Below are positions 3,206-23,936 of a stretch of DNA of 23,936 bases, piece after piece (the stretch's first letter is position 1; every line of letters begins with the position of its first letter). The stretch comes from a virus. Both the position numbers and the translations under genes were made by a program. A model generated the notes under the pieces. It was not told where the DNA came from. It searched no databases and saw only the letters and a list, made by a program, of their open reading frames with translations. The stretch covers positions 1-23,936 of IMG/VR virus record IMGVR_UViG_3300030116_006294; one strand, written 5' to 3'.

Positions 3206-3206
3206 C

Positions 3207-3220
3207 CCTGTTTTTTCAGG
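3207..3220. promoter_or_regulatory. CCTG-T6-CAGG palindrome (cassette copy A)
   Basis: A 4-bp inverted repeat around six T lies directly after the stop codon of the basic-protein gene, 23 nt upstream of the copy A -35 hexamer. Related CCTG-A6-CAGG elements precede copies B and C, and a degenerate form precedes copy D. The stem is too weak to be a convincing terminator. A DNA-level protein-binding site is equally plausible. Confidence 0.5.
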
Positions 3221-3243
3221 CTCAAAAAAAGTTAAATTTTCTC

Positions 3244-3281
3244 TGGACACGCAAGCGGTTTGCCTGTATCGTGTCCGAACA
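3244..3281 (+). promoter_or_regulatory. Promoter copy A, predicting a leaderless mRNA
   Basis: The -35 is TGGACA (3244-3249), the spacer is 17 nt, the -10 is TATCGT (3267-3272), and the ATG at 3282 follows 9 nt after the -10. A start point 6-9 nt below the -10 would leave 0-3 nt of 5' leader. An A/T-rich tract (3221-3243) could serve as an UP element. The spacer holds CAAGCGGTTTG, a variant of an 11-bp palindrome shared with the other copies. Confidence 0.75.
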
Positions 3282-3452
3282 ATGAACGACACGAAAAAAA
3301 CAAAAAACTTTACCGCAAAGCAACTTATCAATCTTGCTAACATGTTAAGGCATGAGGCCGCAATAAAGGACGGAAAAAGTGCAGACTTCAGAAACGCCTT
3401 GCTGGCGTGCGCAGTGAAGCACGAGAGACAGGCCGCATCTCTAAAATCCTAA
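3282..3452 (+). CDS. Small leaderless-type protein, cassette A, 56 aa
   Basis: I do not recognise this protein. It is 56 aa, starts MNDTKKTKNF, is basic, and is predicted mostly helical, with no membrane segment. The ATG sits 9 nt below the -10 hexamer of promoter copy A, so translation probably starts at or next to the mRNA 5' end. The AACAATGAACGA start context matches copies B and C at the other end of the window, and the N-terminus is similarly Lys/Asn/Thr-rich. It forms a two-gene unit with the gene at 3475. The pair sits inside the late structural region with its own promoter, which is typical of a phage moron. Confidence 0.7.
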   Translation: MNDTKKTKNFTAKQLINLANMLRHEAAIKDGKSADFRNALLACAVKHERQAASLKS

Positions 3453-3474
3453 ACCAACCAAACCCAAACAACCA
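3453..3474 (+). promoter_or_regulatory. A/C-only leader without Shine-Dalgarno
   Basis: The 22 nt between the two cassette A genes contain only A and C. No GGAG-like sequence can pair with 16S rRNA, and the tract should be unstructured. The same style of leader precedes second or later genes at 20439, 20935, 21946 and 23272, so it is likely a deliberate initiation region. Confidence 0.6.
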
Positions 3475-3849
3475 ATGAACTACAGCGAGCTTTGCAAAAA
3501 TTATTACGTTCACATATTTGATGAGCAAATTTCAGAAATCAAAAAATTGCCTAATGCTAAACACTATTTGGATAACGGATGGGGAGCATGGGCATCTTAT
3601 TCATACGCTGAAGAGGGTTTAGTTCAATGCAAAAAAACTCGCAGACGTTTTAGGATGACAGCCTGCATTGGCAAAATAGTTTTTAAATCTGGAAAAGAAA
3701 TAGATGAAAAACGATACAAGATTGGGCCTGAAATTGATTATGTTCAATATGTTCGAGATGTTTTAAATGTTAAAATCAAAGCAGGAATTCTTCCTGCTGA
3801 TTATGATGTTGAAAATTATGTCAAAACCTCGCCAAGCATGAATTACTAG
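3475..3849 (+). CDS. Hypothetical protein, cassette A, 124 aa, AT-rich
   Basis: I do not recognise this 124-aa protein. It is a mixed alpha/beta soluble protein with many Tyr and Lys and a Trp-rich patch near residues 36-41 (WGAWAS), without signal peptide or membrane helix. Its codons are clearly richer in A/T than the flanking terminase and portal genes, which suggests recent acquisition. It is the second gene of the moron-like cassette and starts after an A/C-only leader. The downstream joining-protein gene starts 37 nt later. Phage morons often alter host physiology or superinfection, but nothing in the sequence indicates that here. Confidence 0.75.
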   Translation: MNYSELCKNYYVHIFDEQISEIKKLPNAKHYLDNGWGAWASYSYAEEGLVQCKKTRRRFRMTACIGKIVFKSGKEIDEKRYKIGPEIDYVQYVRDVLNVKIKAGILPADYDVENYVKTSPSMNY

Positions 3850-18824: not shown

Positions 18825-19586
18825 ATGGGCAAGGCGTGGAAAAAATTTGTTGCCGTCGGCGATAATCACGGCGCATTGATCGACCAAGACACTGCGCGCG
18901 CGGTGTTAAAGTTTTGCGATCATTGGAAACCTGACGCGCGGATTCACCTTGGCGATTGTTTCGACTTTGCAAGCCTCCGCGCTGGAATAAATCCGGACTC
19001 TGACGGCGTTGCGTGCGATGACCTGAGCGAGGATTTGTTTCAGGGTTTCAAATTCTTGGAGCAATTCAGGCCGCACGTTTACCTTGTCGGCAATCACGAG
19101 GATCGGCTTTGGCGCATAGCAACAAGCCACACGCAAGGTGTGATGCGTTACGCTGCGCGCGATGTGATCGAACGAATCGAAAAGCAGTGCAAGCGAATGC
19201 GTTGCAAGTTGTACCTGTATCACGCCGAGAACGGTGTTCATCACGAGGCAAACGGCAAGCTGGCTTTCGCGCATGGATATTCTGCAAACCAAAACGCGGT
19301 AAAGGAACACGCCACGCATTACGCAGCCGAAGGCGGCAGCGTTATCATGGGCCACTTGCACCGCGTGGAAATCCAGACAGGCAAACGCAAAGGCGGCACG
19401 CATGGATATTCTGCGGGATGCCTCGCAAACTTTTCAGCGATGGACTACGCCAAGAACCGACTAGCAACTGCAGGTTGGGAAAACGCTTTTGCGTTCGGCG
19501 TCTGGAAAGGTGAAACCGCAAACGTATGGATCGCGCGCAAGTGCGGCCCGCGCTGGTTACTGCCGACAGGCGTTGAAGAGTTTTAA
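18825..19586 (+). CDS. Calcineurin-like metallophosphoesterase
   Basis: This 253-aa protein holds the full set of metallophosphoesterase motifs: GDNHG (12-16), GDCFD (43-47), GNHED (89-93), FAHG (148-151) and GHLHR (176-180). These place two metal ions and hydrolyse a phosphomonoester or phosphodiester. The substrate is not predictable; phage members of this family include proteins that process nucleotides, cyclic nucleotides or DNA/RNA ends. There is no signal peptide, so it is cytoplasmic. It starts 20 nt after the last lysis-region gene with AAGGGTGG immediately upstream, and is followed by two small genes after two bases. No motif residue appears to be missing. Confidence 0.9.
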   Translation: MGKAWKKFVAVGDNHGALIDQDTARAVLKFCDHWKPDARIHLGDCFDFASLRAGINPDSDGVACDDLSEDLFQGFKFLEQFRPHVYLVGNHEDRLWRIATSHTQGVMRYAARDVIERIEKQCKRMRCKLYLYHAENGVHHEANGKLAFAHGYSANQNAVKEHATHYAAEGGSVIMGHLHRVEIQTGKRKGGTHGYSAGCLANFSAMDYAKNRLATAGWENAFAFGVWKGETANVWIARKCGPRWLLPTGVEEF

Positions 19587-19588
19587 CA

Positions 19589-19825
19589 ATGGACAAAAAG
19601 ACCGCATCAAAATTTGCGCAAGCACTTGGTTCGCTTGGTAAGGCCGACGTGATCCCTGAAGGATGGGCGACAGCAAGAGAGATCGCCGACAGCCAAGGCG
19701 TGTCCATGCCGCACATGCAAAAAAAGATTCGCGCCCTTGTCGAGTCTGGCACGGCTGAAATGCAGCGGTTCAAAATCAAAACCTCGCGCGGCTTTTATCC
19801 CGTGCCGCATTACCGGATCAAATGA
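19589..19825 (+). CDS. Small winged-helix-like protein
   Basis: This 78-aa protein carries a helix-turn-helix-like stretch WATAREIADSQGVSMPHMQKKIRALVESG (residues about 26-54), followed by a beta-rich wing-like tail ending in PVPHYRIK. That layout suits a small DNA-binding protein. It might be a regulator, but the regulated sites are unknown; the promoter family at 20141, 21598, 22940 and 3244 is a candidate worth testing. It sits between the metallophosphoesterase and another small gene, and its stop overlaps the next ATG (ATGA). Confidence 0.62.
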   Translation: MDKKTASKFAQALGSLGKADVIPEGWATAREIADSQGVSMPHMQKKIRALVESGTAEMQRFKIKTSRGFYPVPHYRIK

Positions 19826-20090: not shown

Positions 20091-20106
20091 CCCTGAAAAA
20101 ACAGGG
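20091..20106. promoter_or_regulatory. CCCTG-A6-CAGGG palindrome (copy B)
   Basis: A 5-bp inverted repeat around six A, 34 nt upstream of the copy B -35. The gap between the two is 34-35 nt in copies B and C and 23 nt in A and D, a difference of about one helical turn. This is the best-formed example of the element. Confidence 0.55.
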
Positions 20107-20140
20107 CCAAAAACTTTTTTCAAAAAAGTAAAATAATCTG

Positions 20141-20178
20141 TTGACAGGCAAGCGGCTTGGCTGTATGCTGTAAGCACA
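20141..20178 (+). promoter_or_regulatory. Promoter copy B, predicting a leaderless mRNA
   Basis: The consensus -35 TTGACA (20141-20146), a 17-nt spacer, and -10 TATGCT (20164-20169) are followed by nine bases and the ATG at 20179. The spacer contains CAAGCGGCTTG (20149-20159), a perfect 5-bp-arm palindrome around G, which could be an operator. The A/T-rich tract at about 20107-20137 could be an UP element. Confidence 0.85.
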
Positions 20179-20409
20179 ATGAACGCAGCAAACAAGACAA
20201 ACCAAATCAAACTCAACGGCACAACATACAACGTCGAGGAGGTAGTAACCACCGAACAACACCGCGCCGAGGGTCGCGTGAACGTAGCAAATCACCGCAA
20301 CCAAGTCGGCATTGTTGCTGACTTAATCCTGCGCCGCCCTAACGGCAAGAAGCTGCACCTCGCCTACACTTTCGCAAACGGACAAACCCAGTATGTCTTG
20401 AGCCTCTAA
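20179..20409 (+). CDS. Small leaderless-type protein, copy B
   Basis: This 76-aa protein starts MNAANKTNQIKLNG, whose codons 5-12 also appear in the gene at 21636. It is beta-rich after the tag, with NGTTYNVEEV and later NGKKLHLAYTFANGQTQYVLSL. That pattern is echoed in the gene at 21257 (DGETYTVTDL ... SGKRVHFTTTKGKTALVSL), so the two bodies look like distant paralogs. No family is recognised. The ATG lies nine bases under the -10, so initiation should occur at the mRNA 5' end. Confidence 0.7.
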   Translation: MNAANKTNQIKLNGTTYNVEEVVTTEQHRAEGRVNVANHRNQVGIVADLILRRPNGKKLHLAYTFANGQTQYVLSL

Positions 20410-20438
20410 CCTAAACCCAAACCCAAAAGCATAAGAAA
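20410..20438 (+). promoter_or_regulatory. A/C-rich leader, no Shine-Dalgarno
   Basis: This 29-nt gap between the copy B first and second genes is A/C-rich (CCTAAACCCAAACCC) and lacks a GGAG-like site. It resembles the leaders at 3453, 20910, 21903 and 23245. Confidence 0.55.
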
Positions 20439-20909
20439 ATGAATATTTTTGAAATAACCGAAGAGACAACAAACGCACGCGGCGAAACCTATTTGCCGCC
20501 TGTCAATGTCAACAACAAGGAAATCAACGCAACTTTGGTTTTTAGCAAACGGCCAACGGGCAAGAGCCAGACGATCACTTTTCAGGTTGACGCAGTGAAT
20601 GGCAGCTTTGGCGATGAGTGGCATGACACATACAACAAAATTTACGACAGCGAGAAACAGTGGCGCGCCGCGCACGCTCGCTACTTAAAAAAATACGCTG
20701 CACAACAGAACCCGAAAATCAAAATCACAAACAACATCAACCTGATGGCAAGGGCCATCCCATTGGCCTCTGCAATGGTGCACGCTGGCAAAACCTACAA
20801 TGCCAGCCATATCGACGCAGACGGATGGGCTGTTTCTCCGGAAGCTGGCTCCATGTTTCCGCCATGCTGCTTTGAGGTGATAGATCAAAAACCCGAAATG
20901 AACGACTAA
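20439..20909 (+). CDS. Hypothetical protein, 156 aa, early region
   Basis: I do not recognise this protein. It is soluble, with a beta-rich N-terminal half (INATLVFSKRPTGKSQTITFQVDAVNG), a basic helical middle (about residues 70-100, Lys/Arg/Ala-rich), and a C-terminal part with a CC pair (FPPCCFEV). There is no membrane segment. It is the second gene of the copy B operon and starts after an A/C-rich leader. Confidence 0.72.
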   Translation: MNIFEITEETTNARGETYLPPVNVNNKEINATLVFSKRPTGKSQTITFQVDAVNGSFGDEWHDTYNKIYDSEKQWRAAHARYLKKYAAQQNPKIKITNNINLMARAIPLASAMVHAGKTYNASHIDADGWAVSPEAGSMFPPCCFEVIDQKPEMND

Positions 20910-20934
20910 CCTAAACCCCAAACACAAACGACCA
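20910..20934 (+). promoter_or_regulatory. A/C-rich leader, no Shine-Dalgarno
   Basis: A 25-nt A/C-rich gap (CCTAAACCCCAAACACAAAC) sits before the ATG at 20935. Its first seven bases repeat those of the leader at 20410. Confidence 0.55.
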
Positions 20935-21252
20935 ATGAAAAAAGAAATCACCAAGCAAACAGGCTCAGAGCTTGAGGAGTTGAGACAATTCAAGCAGAGA
21001 GTGGAAACACTGCACAGAAAGTTTTTGAGGAGTCATATCAAAGGCGGCCCAAATGCACACAGCCCCGCCGCTGACGAGGCTCAGATTCTTGACAATATAA
21101 TTTCGGGCAAGCCTGAGTTATATCTGACAAGAATGGCCGAAGTCTTACATGATACGGTTGAAGCGTACAGACAAGAAGCAAAACGAAATCCTGAACACAA
21201 GCCAGAGCTTGAGAAATACGAAGAGCAGTTTAAAAACTTATCAATGGATTAG
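20935..21252 (+). CDS. Helical hypothetical protein, 105 aa
   Basis: This 105-aa protein is very rich in Glu, Lys and Gln and is predicted almost entirely helical, with coiled-coil-like stretches at about 8-35 and 70-100. No motif is recognised. Its first seven codons match those of the gene at 21257 except for codon 2 (AAA versus CAA), so the two genes share an N-terminal tag (M-K/Q-KEITK). Confidence 0.7.
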   Translation: MKKEITKQTGSELEELRQFKQRVETLHRKFLRSHIKGGPNAHSPAADEAQILDNIISGKPELYLTRMAEVLHDTVEAYRQEAKRNPEHKPELEKYEEQFKNLSMD

Positions 21253-21256
21253 CATC

Positions 21257-21553
21257 ATGCAAAAAGAAATCACCAAGAACGGGTTGCGCATCCTGCGCGA
21301 AGAAATCAACGGGTTCCAGATATGGGAAACCATACCGCGCCGCAATCACATCGGCGGCGTGATGCGCGAGGTTGGCGACGCCGTGACCATCGACGGCGAG
21401 ACGTACACCGTGACCGACCTTGCCGAAGCTGGCGCGCGTTGCCAGATTACAACAAAGCGCGTTGTGGATTACGAAACCGTATCGGGCAAGCGCGTGCATT
21501 TCACAACGACCAAAGGCAAGACCGCCCTCGTGTCTCTCTACAAATACCCCTGA
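21257..21553 (+). CDS. Small beta-rich hypothetical protein, 98 aa
   Basis: This 98-aa protein starts MQKEITKNG. I chose the ATG at 21257, four bases after the previous stop, because an upstream frame from 21149 would run inside that gene. After the tag it is mixed and then beta-rich. Its second half (DGETYTVTDL, RVHFTTTKGKTALVSL) echoes the gene at 20179, so a shared ancestor is likely. No catalytic motif is visible. Its stop TGA lies within the CCTG-A6-CAGG element of copy C. Confidence 0.68.
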   Translation: MQKEITKNGLRILREEINGFQIWETIPRRNHIGGVMREVGDAVTIDGETYTVTDLAEAGARCQITTKRVVDYETVSGKRVHFTTTKGKTALVSLYKYP

Positions 21554-21562
21554 AAAAACAGG
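21549..21562. promoter_or_regulatory. CCTG-A6-CAGG palindrome (copy C), overlapping a stop codon
   Basis: The 4-bp inverted repeat around six A overlaps the TGA stop of the gene at 21257, 35 nt upstream of the copy C -35. It belongs to the same element family as 3207 and 20091. Confidence 0.5.
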
Positions 21563-21597
21563 CTCAGAAATTATTTGAAAAAAAATAAAAAAAACGC

Positions 21598-21635
21598 TGG
21601 ACAGATCACAGGCAAGCTGCTAGAGTGTCAGCACA
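21598..21635 (+). promoter_or_regulatory. Promoter copy C, predicting a leaderless mRNA
   Basis: TGGACA (21598-21603), a 17-nt spacer and TAGAGT (21621-21626) are followed by nine bases and the ATG at 21636. The CAAGCTGCTAG variant of the operator-like palindrome runs into the -10 here, unlike copies A and B where it is seven bases further upstream. An A/T tract upstream (21567-21593) could be an UP element. Confidence 0.8.
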
Positions 21636-21902
21636 ATGAACGAGCGCAACAAGACAAACCAAATCAAACTTAATGAGGATATTTTACCTGTGACCCCCTC
21701 AATGCAGAAGTTTACAATTCAGGCAAACGCATTCAGCGCGGCTTGCTCATTTCTTCCAAAGCGCGACATACCAAAGACCGCCACAAAAACAACCGTGCAA
21801 TTTCGAGTTTTCCTCATTGAGTATATGGAAAACAACGAGTGCGACGCGATTGGAAATTTTCCCGATATGATTGACTTTGCAGTTTCTTGCTGCAAGCGAT
21901 AA
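21636..21902 (+). CDS. Small leaderless-type protein, copy C
   Basis: This 88-aa protein starts MNERNKTNQIKLNED and shares its first codons with the gene at 20179. The remainder is soluble with a basic middle and several Cys residues (C31, C77, C85, C86). No family is recognised. It is the first gene of a two-gene unit with 21946 and is predicted to be read from a leaderless mRNA. Confidence 0.7.
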   Translation: MNERNKTNQIKLNEDILPVTPSMQKFTIQANAFSAACSFLPKRDIPKTATKTTVQFRVFLIEYMENNECDAIGNFPDMIDFAVSCCKR

Positions 21903-21945
21903 CAAAACCAAACCAAAAACCAAAACCAAAACACACATAAAGACA
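21903..21945 (+). promoter_or_regulatory. A/C-rich leader, no Shine-Dalgarno
   Basis: This 43-nt gap contains repeated AAACCA/AAAACC units and ends AAAGACA before the ATG. It is the longest of the A/C-rich leaders. The same AAAGACA-ATG ending appears at 23272. Confidence 0.6.
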
Positions 21946-22854
21946 ATGAGTATGCACAAGTACGGAATCAAGGGCCGCGAGATCGTGGCAAAAACCTCCA
22001 ACGGAACAATCAACATTAGCACCTTTGGCTGGCTGTATCAGCTTGGTACGCGGTCATGGGAAGAAAACGGAGAGATTGAGCGGCGCGAGGATGCGGTTAT
22101 TGATCTATTCAACAAACGCGCGGTTGATTACACTGACCCCGCAACAGGTCACACGCAAAAGGTTTTGCCCTACGTTATCGAGTCGCACATCAGCAAGTGC
22201 ACACCACTTGACAAGACGGAAGTCTTTCCCGTTCGCGCAAATTGCCCGCGCAGGTTTTTCGTTGAAGGCTGGGGCGAGGCCAAAGGGGGCGAGGAAAGTT
22301 TCGGCAAGCTGGTCGGCTACATTTCACACAACGGCACGCGCTGGGTTTTCAAAACCTCTTACACCAAAAAGATAAAGGTTTATTGTGATGTACCTGTTGC
22401 TGATTCTCATTTCCAAGGAACAGAGTTGCAGGAGGTGGACGCTGTTTTTGGCTTGCACGCAACTGATGACAGCATAGTGCGAAAGGCGACTTACCATTTG
22501 CGCGGGTTGGATTTGACCTTTGAAAGGTACGGCAGAGATGCCAGCGGTGAATTCGATCTCAACCTTAACGGCGAAGAGTTTGCAACCTTACCTCAGCACG
22601 TCAAAGATGATCTGCGCACAAAGGCGTTTCAAATTATTGAGGATCGAAAGAAACGCGAAGAGCAGCGCACGCAAGAACTGCTTGAGATCAAGCGCAAGCA
22701 AAGGCTGGCAGCGCAGCAACGCGAGCTTGCGCAATTAGAACAGGCGCAACGCGAAGCCGAACAGGCCGCCGCCGAGGCCGCGCAAAAGGTCGAGGCCGCA
22801 CGCCGCAACCTGAGCCGCCCAGAGTTGCCGCCGCTCCCCAAGGTTGCCTCTTAA
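21946..22854 (+). CDS. Hypothetical protein with C-terminal coiled coil, 302 aa
   Basis: I do not recognise this protein. Residues 1-210 form a mixed alpha/beta globular part (GWLYQLGTRSWEENGE, GKLVGYISHNGTRWVF). Residues about 228-290 are a long Glu/Gln/Ala/Arg-rich coiled coil. A Pro-rich end (PELPPLPKVAS) follows. I chose the ATG at 21946, after the A/C-rich leader, over a TTG far upstream that lies inside the previous gene. The protein is followed by a perfect hairpin that may end its transcript. The coiled coil suggests oligomerisation or a partner-binding role. Confidence 0.75.
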   Translation: MSMHKYGIKGREIVAKTSNGTINISTFGWLYQLGTRSWEENGEIERREDAVIDLFNKRAVDYTDPATGHTQKVLPYVIESHISKCTPLDKTEVFPVRANCPRRFFVEGWGEAKGGEESFGKLVGYISHNGTRWVFKTSYTKKIKVYCDVPVADSHFQGTELQEVDAVFGLHATDDSIVRKATYHLRGLDLTFERYGRDASGEFDLNLNGEEFATLPQHVKDDLRTKAFQIIEDRKKREEQRTQELLEIKRKQRLAAQQRELAQLEQAQREAEQAAAEAAQKVEAARRNLSRPELPPLPKVAS

Positions 22855-22863
22855 ACCCAGCAA

Positions 22864-22894
22864 GGCGAGGGGCGGCCAAGCGTCGCCCCTCGCC
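22864..22894 (+). terminator. Hairpin after the 302-aa protein gene, probable terminator
   Basis: A perfect 11-bp stem (GGCGAGGGGCG with CGCCCCTCGCC) closes a nine-base loop. There is no T run after it, so it is not a classic intrinsic terminator; it could protect an RNA 3' end or terminate with a factor. It directly precedes the copy D control region. Confidence 0.6.
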
Positions 22895-22900
22895 AGATAA

Positions 22901-22916
22901 CCCCACAAAAACAGGG
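22901..22916. promoter_or_regulatory. Degenerate CCTG-A6-CAGG element (copy D)
   Basis: The right arm ACAGGG is kept but the left arm is CCCCAC, so pairing is lost except for outer C-G pairs. It lies 23 nt upstream of the copy D -35, the same distance as in copy A. It is reported as the homologous element on position and partial sequence. Confidence 0.4.
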
Positions 22917-22939
22917 CAAAAAAAAGTTTAAAAAAACCC

Positions 22940-22977
22940 TTTACAAACGACAGGCAAGCGGCTAGAGTGTCAGCACA
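22940..22977 (+). promoter_or_regulatory. Promoter copy D, predicting a leaderless mRNA
   Basis: TTTACA (22940-22945), a 17-nt spacer and TAGAGT (22963-22968) are followed by GTCAGCACA and the ATG at 22978. The -10 and discriminator are identical to copy C. CAAGCGGCTAG runs into the -10. Confidence 0.8.
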
Positions 22978-23244
22978 ATGAAGGTAGCAAACAAGACAAT
23001 GACAGAGGAACAAGCACGGCAAAAAATCAATTTAACCGTTGCGGCATTCTGGAGTAACAGAGCGTGCCAAATGTTTCACTCAGCAACAACTTGCAACATG
23101 GGAACATTTATTCCAAAGGGAATCGCAAACCTGAAGATCACAAAAGATTGGCCTTTGAAGCCAGCAACTTTTACTCGCCTCGCGGATGGTGCGAAAATGA
23201 AAATGCACCTTCAAGGCAACAAATTCAAAATCACAAAATCCTAA
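22978..23244 (+). CDS. Small leaderless-type protein, copy D
   Basis: This 88-aa protein starts MKVANKTMTEEQARQK. Codons 4-7 (GCA AAC AAG ACA) repeat those of the copy B gene. It is basic, with an N-terminal helix and a beta-rich remainder (KPATFTRLADGAKMKMHLQGNKFKITKS). No family is recognised. It is predicted to be translated from a leaderless mRNA and forms a unit with the gene at 23272. Confidence 0.7.
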   Translation: MKVANKTMTEEQARQKINLTVAAFWSNRACQMFHSATTCNMGTFIPKGIANLKITKDWPLKPATFTRLADGAKMKMHLQGNKFKITKS

Positions 23245-23271
23245 AACCAAAACCCTAAACAGCAAAAGACA
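23245..23271 (+). promoter_or_regulatory. A/C-rich leader, no Shine-Dalgarno
   Basis: A 27-nt A-rich, C-containing gap with AACCAAAACC and a final AAAGACA before the ATG, without a GGAG-like site. Confidence 0.55.
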
Positions 23272-23936
23272 ATGAAACAAATACAACAAATCCAATCTGA
23301 GCAAAGCCAGATCAAAAACGCAATGAGCGAAGTGCGCGAACGAGTGCAAAACGTTTTCTATTTAGATTTGCCACGCGGGCCAGTTTACAATCACCCGCAA
23401 TCTGGTTTTGCTGTTCAGGATCGCATTGCACCAGCCGGCACAAGCTCCGAGGCTTTGATGGAATGTTATTACTCCGATTTTAACAGCACCGAGAAAAGCC
23501 TGTTGCGCTGGCTCGCCAAATGGGAAAAGGCTGCGGGCGTTGACGCGCTCGCGCCATACGCTGAAAAGCTGAAAGCACTGCAAGTCGATCTTGAAGCCAG
23601 CAAAAAAGAACTGGCCGAAACTCGCGCCGCAATCAAAGAGGCCAAAGCACTAAAGGCCGCAGTCAAGCAAGGCTTGCTTACTGGCCCGCTCGGCGAATGC
23701 CTCAAAGACTTTCGCCCCGAATACGTCGCAAGATGTCTTGCCGTTTACGATATGCCAGACGGTGTCGGTTATGAAAAAAAGGTTGTCAAATATGTGAACG
23801 GCAAAAAAACTCTTGAGAGCGTCTTTGTCAAAAAAGGATCGCGCGAATGGGAGCGCAAAAAGGCGGAGGTTATCGAGTGCGCAAATCATTCGGTTGATGC
23901 CTACATTTACAAGCTCGCCGAAAAGATCGGCAAGAG
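23272..23936 (+). CDS. Hypothetical protein, cut by the window end
   Basis: An open frame of at least 221 codons runs off the right edge. The N-terminus is Gln-rich (MKQIQQIQSEQSQIK). Residues about 80-135 are a Lys/Glu/Ala-rich coiled coil, and the rest is mixed (GPLGECLKDFRPEYVARC). I do not recognise a family. It is the second gene of the copy D unit and starts after an A/C-rich leader. The length and domain order beyond residue 221 are unknown. Confidence 0.72.
   Translation, partial: MKQIQQIQSEQSQIKNAMSEVRERVQNVFYLDLPRGPVYNHPQSGFAVQDRIAPAGTSSEALMECYYSDFNSTEKSLLRWLAKWEKAAGVDALAPYAEKLKALQVDLEASKKELAETRAAIKEAKALKAAVKQGLLTGPLGECLKDFRPEYVARCLAVYDMPDGVGYEKKVVKYVNGKKTLESVFVKKGSREWERKKAEVIECANHSVDAYIYKLAEKIGK

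Follow-up and report, generated by a model that had tools for sequence, protein, structure and literature searches.

Copied promoter-start cassettes predicted to give leaderless or near-leaderless mRNAs in a group of marine phages

We analysed a 23,936-base viral record, IMGVR_UViG_3300030116_006294 of IMG/VR (hereafter the window, meaning this whole stretch of DNA), in which one promoter-to-start arrangement recurs four times. The window carries tailed phage genes for the small and large terminase, portal, major head, tape-measure and tail-fibre proteins; this phage and its relatives are marine phages. At all four sites a −35 hexamer is followed by exactly 17 nucleotides (nt), a −10 hexamer, exactly 9 nt and an ATG. 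The −35 elements begin at 3244, 20141, 21598 and 22940, and the respective ATGs at 3282, 20179, 21636 and 22978. This geometry had been reported in a first-pass annotation of the window, and its hexamers, spacers, gaps and coordinates proved exact throughout. The pattern TKKACA-N17-TANNNT-N9-ATG matches the window four times, always on the plus strand, and gave no match in 100 dinucleotide shuffles. Counting both strands, 210 ATGs begin a frame of ≥50 codons; with spacing left free (spacer 15–19, distance to ATG 3–20), TKKACA was paired with TAnnnT at only these four, all as (17, 9). A repeat finder merged the sites into one 80-nt family, D1 (~80–110 nt). The four sites are therefore copies of one repeat rather than four independent events.

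As judged from the alignment, the repeated unit exceeds a promoter and an ATG, and is a self-contained expression cassette of ~80–110 bp. It begins with a hairpin of the form CCTG-A6/T6-CAGG, or its remnant, followed by A/T tracts, the −35 element, a spacer motif, the −10 element and nine bases ending in ACA before the ATG. After the ATG come ~9 shared A/C-rich codons (for example, MNERNKTNQIK or MNAANKTNQIK), and only then unrelated open reading frame (ORF) sequence. The 25 nt before the −35 are 78% A+T, against 49% genome-wide. The annotation's promoter/ATG geometry therefore stands, but the extent it gave the unit does not: the shared first codons were overlooked, as were copy numbers of up to 12 per phage.

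All four cassettes lie on the plus strand. Cassette 1 (3206–3314), between the terminase and portal genes, has a CCTG-T6-CAGG hairpin (3206–3219), an A-rich block, −35 TGGACA (3244–3249), a spacer at 3250–3266 with a dyad centred on 3257, −10 TATCGT (3267–3272), a predicted transcription start at A3279 and the ATG at 3282 that opens a 56-residue ORF (3282–3452). In cassette 2 (20091–20214), a CCCTG-A6-CAGGG hairpin (20091–20106) and A/T tracts precede −35 TTGACA (20141–20146), the spacer GGCAAGCGGCTTGGC (20147–20163) and −10 TATGCT (20164–20169); transcription is predicted to start at A20176, and the ORF (20179–20409) has the first codons MNAANKTNQIKL. Cassette 3 (21548–21671) has a CCTG-A6-CAGG hairpin (21548–21562) overlapping the previous stop codon, an A-rich block, −35 TGGACA (21598–21603), −10 TAGAGT (21621–21626), a predicted start at A21633 and an ORF (21636–21902) with first codons MNERNKTNQIKL. 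Cassette 4 (22902–23013) combines a CCACAAAAACAGGG box and an A-rich block with −35 TTTACA (22940–22945), −10 TAGAGT (22963–22968), a predicted start at A22975 and an ORF (22978–23244) beginning MKVANKTM. Cassettes 3 and 4 are in what we call register B, the spacer motif being displaced by 7 nt with the −35/−10/ATG spacings unaltered. The CCTG-A6-CAGG hairpin is near or overlaps the preceding stop codon in many copies; we rejected it as an intrinsic terminator, as it has no U-tract and is absent or degraded in several copies.

Searches with the large terminase (TerL) and major capsid protein (MCP) yielded phages with 97–99% and ~56–73% identity in these proteins, plus more distant ones. The layout recurs in these related phages, where the annotation had suggested it be sought. 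A pattern search of 25 records from the TerL/MCP searches found a 17-nt spacer with a 9- or 8-nt gap in G001, G002, G014 and L006, which are close relatives, and in G005, which is more distant; a local scan added L005. Repeat searches revealed two more cassette families of different sequence with the 17/6 layout, in G013 (11 repeats, most starting MTTTNETKT) and in G018 (copies starting MLNGTN). Selected at a 17-nt spacer, our table comprises 34 cassettes in eight records, to which the window contributes 4 copies, G013 12 and G018 6. The gap between −10 and ATG is 9 or 8 nt in the window group and G005, and 6 nt in 17 of the 18 copies from G013 (12/12) and G018 (5/6; the sixth has 9). One G018 copy with a 16-nt spacer is still 6 nt from its ATG. 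Scanning viral contigs with a motif that proved over-specific gave no matches, and four contigs from outside the group retrieved by AACAAGACAAACCAAATCA (L083, L084, L085 and L087) showed no plausible cassette.

Sigma70 polymerase most often initiates ~7 bases after the −10 element, on a purine preceded by a pyrimidine. Base 7 after the −10 is A in 34/34 cassettes, and in 29 of them a pyrimidine (C or T) stands at base 6. Since the usual start site is thus an A, leaders of 3, 2 or 0 nt are predicted, namely ACA for a gap of 9, AG for a gap of 8 and none for a gap of 6. The gap takes three values across lineages, each of which places an A at the preferred position, and the messages would probably begin at or within three nucleotides of the start codon. 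That these genes have leaderless or near-leaderless mRNAs, as the annotation had proposed, is well supported by this comparison, the expected start in distant relatives with a gap of 6 falling on the A of the ATG itself.

Features of the coding start point the same way. The first 45 nt of the predicted mRNA fold at 0.0 kcal/mol in all four window cassettes, and the mean over the 34 cassettes is −1.2 kcal/mol, as opposed to −8.5 inside the same ORFs. Codons 2–11 are 80% A/C, compared with 53% inside the same ORFs; CA repeats just after AUG are reported to enhance leaderless translation (PMC9031893). No Shine-Dalgarno (SD) sequence precedes any of the four window cassette starts. None of the 10 cassette-region genes has one, against 14 of the 23 other window genes (p = 0.0014), which bears out the contrast with SD-led genes drawn by the annotation. 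Many non-cassette genes are also without SD, however, and in other genomes the contrast is not clear, the automated check having relied on a crude ORF caller that made it uninformative; the SD argument therefore holds for the window only. The annotation's further suggestion, separate translational control when 70S monosomes dominate, is conjectural here.

The spacer between −35 and −10 contains a 15-bp dyad with the consensus GGCAAGC-S-GCTTGCC in and near the window. Its sequence differs elsewhere (GCACAGC-C-GCTTTGC in G013 and GGTTAAC-C-GTTTACC in one G018 copy), with its centre at spacer base 8 in three lineages (column permutation p ≤ 0.0005 each). A dimeric repressor bound here could block polymerase, and the cassettes are probably under one regulator; the conserved dyad thus lends support to the regulon that the annotation had envisaged. 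A candidate regulator is encoded just upstream of cassette 2 (19589–19825, plus strand). This 78-residue protein is a winged helix by structure prediction (pLDDT 84), has weak Rrf2/TrmB matches below the cut-off and, among solved structures, best matches winged-helix proteins with weak E-values. It is conserved in G001 and G014, and G018 has a relative at 42–43% identity. No relative was detected in G013, which does have the dyad, so the protein is only a candidate and may not be the sole regulator. Among 2.9 million viral contigs, dyad-based patterns matched mainly this phage group. Outside the group, L072 (6199–6236), L074 (3372–3409, minus strand) and L076 (2114–2151) have a common TTGACACACAAGCCGCTTGAGTGTATAATATAAGTATG before a 46-residue basic ORF, with the same dyad, a 17-nt spacer and a gap of 6, by chance or convergence.

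Copies from the same phage are ~90–95% identical in promoter and first codons and are set between unrelated flanks and ORF bodies. Ten G013 copies share 95% identity across the initial 24 nt of the ORF and 90% across the 60 nt before it, and identity falls to 25–26% further out on both sides. Two G013 protein bodies are homologous to G001/G014 proteins (27–35% identity), and these homologous bodies each bear their own genome's cassette and first codons. G014 and G001 have one common body behind different starts (MNERNKTNQIK versus MKAANNKLQATK) and one common start region, ITKQDLDDLKIDKSKPI, joined to different bodies. These patterns support homogenization of cassettes within a genome and their exchange between ORFs by recombination. 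Indels among the shared first codons come in multiples of three, which indicates that the stretch is coding.

We therefore favour, with a probability of roughly 0.74, mobile, homogenized promoter-start cassettes that give leaderless or near-leaderless mRNAs and that form a putative regulon under one regulator. Host RNA polymerase would start on the A at base 7 past the −10 and so produce mRNAs with the 5′ end ACA-AUG in the window phage (a 3-nt leader) and AUG in the two lineages with a 6-nt gap. These would be translated without SD pairing, aided by their unstructured A/C-rich first codons. Binding of a dimeric regulator to the spacer dyad would make the copies a regulon. Recombination would homogenize the copies and swap cassettes among ORFs, such that newly acquired accessory ORFs would join the same promoter-start unit. 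A bolder version, which we put forward tentatively and hold to be possible rather than probable, is a plug-in module that ends inside coding sequence, in which the promoter, the spacer operator, the leaderless start and a ribosome-loading tag of nine codons are copied and homogenized together. If true, any captured ORF would at once be transcribed, translated without a ribosome-binding site and brought into one regulon. Such a module would serve even a mini-ORF of 10 codons in front of a normal gene. A G018 cassette (L064, 1655–1687) directly after a canonical terminator has a mini-ORF of this length (MLNGINKNTN and a stop codon), which is separated by 8 nt from the ATG of the following gene, for a 328-residue DUF932 protein; this would be a leaderless mini-ORF, probably coupled to a normal gene.

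Several points weigh against the favoured reading of leaderless, co-regulated cassettes. Its transcript starts are placed solely by promoter geometry. The 34 copies are non-independent, amounting to three lineages and one single copy, and since the cassettes are related the A at base 7 does not constitute 34 independent tests. For cassettes with a gap of 6, base 7 coincides with the A of the ATG by construction; for those with a gap of 9, its A may serve translation, as SD-less genes inside operons of the window also start in the context ACAATG. The scan demanded a spacer of 17 nt and so would have missed copies spaced differently, and the constancy of the spacer is partly selection. In G013 roughly half of the −10 hexamers read CATNCT and match poorly. 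Only half a dyad is present in four cassettes, those at 21598 and 22940 and their G001 and G014 relatives; this is the left half, displaced by 7 nt with promoter spacings intact. Scans of GTDB with the MCP (A1) and TerL (A2) alignments found no relatives and identified no host.

The homogenization and shuffling of the copies, evident from the sequences, are also what would be expected if these were ordinary sigma70 promoters, conserved only through copying and recombination in the manner of promoter early stem-loop (PeSL) cassettes, with a short gap that is translationally meaningless. Some G018 copies, moreover, directly follow canonical intrinsic terminators, as in promoter-terminator cassettes. 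We nevertheless judge this explanation improbable: the gap is constant within each lineage yet 9 or 8 in some and 6 in others, always with A at base 7; it stays 6 even where the spacer is 16; and the unit reaches into A/C-rich, unstructured first codons that a purely transcriptional cassette would not need. Since the first ~9 codons are far better conserved among copies than the remainder of the ORF, they could instead be read as a 5′ untranslated leader with translation from a downstream start codon, and the G018 mini-ORF 8 nt before the DUF932 gene can be taken in that sense. This is very improbable, given that indels in the shared stretch are multiples of three, that the same G014/G001 body joins different starts in frame, that the window copies have no SD-led in-frame start downstream and that no second in-frame ATG occurs in the 76-residue ORF of cassette 2.

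In the main alternative, the arrangement is the normal promoter-start architecture of a host from a leaderless-rich phylum, with no regulon of the phage's own. Leaderless mRNAs would also fit this view, which conflicts only with a regulon specific to the phage. In several bacterial phyla, leaderless genes led by TANNNT are common (PMC3160421, PMC12340547), and the many SD-less leadered genes of the phage genomes suggest a host tolerant of such starts. We nonetheless consider it rather unlikely. The spacer dyad and shared first codons are specific features, and dyad-based patterns matched mainly this phage group; SD sequences precede many of the phage's structural genes; and neither GTDB scan found a host. 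Verrucomicrobia, an earlier guess at the host, was dropped after a literature search for leaderless starts there gave nothing relevant. MCP had no match in INPHARED, no tRNA genes were found in the relatives and our searches found no cultured relative of these phages.

The annotation had regarded the arrangement as a candidate for an undescribed system. Phage leaderless regulons, mobile promoter cassettes and the start-associated SAS repeats below have all been described, so the cassette is new only as a variant. In the Thermus phage phiYS40, middle and late transcripts were reported from experiment to be leaderless (Sevostyanova 2007, as described in PMC3594737). A class of phage genes is likewise read here as leaderless mRNAs, by inference rather than by experiment. 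The same source proposes for phiYS40 a translational shift with IF2 up and IF3 down. The window cassettes differ in their −35 element, spacer dyad and shared first codons, and the phage type differs. PeSLs are mobile cassettes of T4-like phages (Arbiol 2010 and Comeau 2014, cited in PMC4503421). They, like the cassettes, are multi-copy regulatory units between accessory ORFs, tied to module shuffling, and such copying and shuffling is seen here in the 4 window, 12 G013 and 6 G018 copies and in the exchange of bodies and starts. The PeSL combination of terminator and promoter is seen in some G018 copies, whereas the window hairpin has no U-tract and is not in every copy. Unlike PeSLs, the unit passes the start codon into ~9 codons and keeps a fixed gap to the ATG.

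Two further comparisons are with SAS/ESAS repeats and TA-led genes. The SAS/ESAS of cluster K mycobacteriophages are 13-bp GGGATAGGAGCCC motifs immediately upstream of starts (PMC3203893). As here, many copies of a short motif stand directly before the starts of phage genes that are unrelated to one another, and some copies include an inverted repeat, but the SAS motif is a different sequence without a −35/−10 layout; start-proximal sequences here are GTCAGCACA-ATG and similar. TA-led leaderless bacterial genes carry TANNNT ~10–12 bp before the start (PMC3160421; for Deinococcus-Thermus, PMC12340547). The cassettes likewise have TAnnnT close before the start and no SD, the −10 ending 9 nt before the ATG in 4/4 window copies and 9, 8 or 6 nt before it in relatives. 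TA-led genes, however, are scattered single genes of cellular genomes and not a copied cassette with shared N-terminal codons. The copied promoter-start unit looks like an undescribed version of known leaderless phage messages, and would function as both a leaderless regulon and a mobile promoter cassette, joining the two in one unit that includes coding sequence. If starts lie where the geometry puts them, a phage-wide leaderless class would be recognizable from sequence alone, the common first residues of unrelated small phage proteins would be explained and the cassettes would offer a test bed for the recruitment of ribosomes to leaderless mRNAs by A/C-rich first codons.

Further genes follow the cassettes on the plus strand. 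The second gene of the cassette-1 operon (3475–3849) has no SD and a CA-rich leader ending ACCAATG. Three ORFs 3′ of cassette 2 (20439–20909, 20935–21252 and 21257–21553) are also without SD, the first two with CA-rich leaders. The second genes of the cassette-3 (21946–22854) and cassette-4 operons (23272–23936, running off the contig) have SD-less CA-rich leaders ending AAGACAATG. The intra-operon leaders (3453–3474, 20410–20438, 20910–20934, 21903–21945 and 23245–23271; for example, AACCAAACCAAAAACCAAAACC...AAGACAATG) are 88–96% A/C over 25 nt and appear to be another type of SD-less start in this phage. Between the 21946–22854 gene and cassette 4, a strong GC-rich inverted repeat at 22862–22893 (GGCGAGGGGCGGCC..GTCGCCCCTCGCC) is possibly a terminator without a U-tract. 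A metallophosphoesterase-like gene (18825–19586; phrog_221, PF00149) lies just upstream of the cassette region and is kept in G001. At a contig end of G007 (L060, 4316–4447) there is a tandem 12-bp repeat, CTATGAATTCAC.

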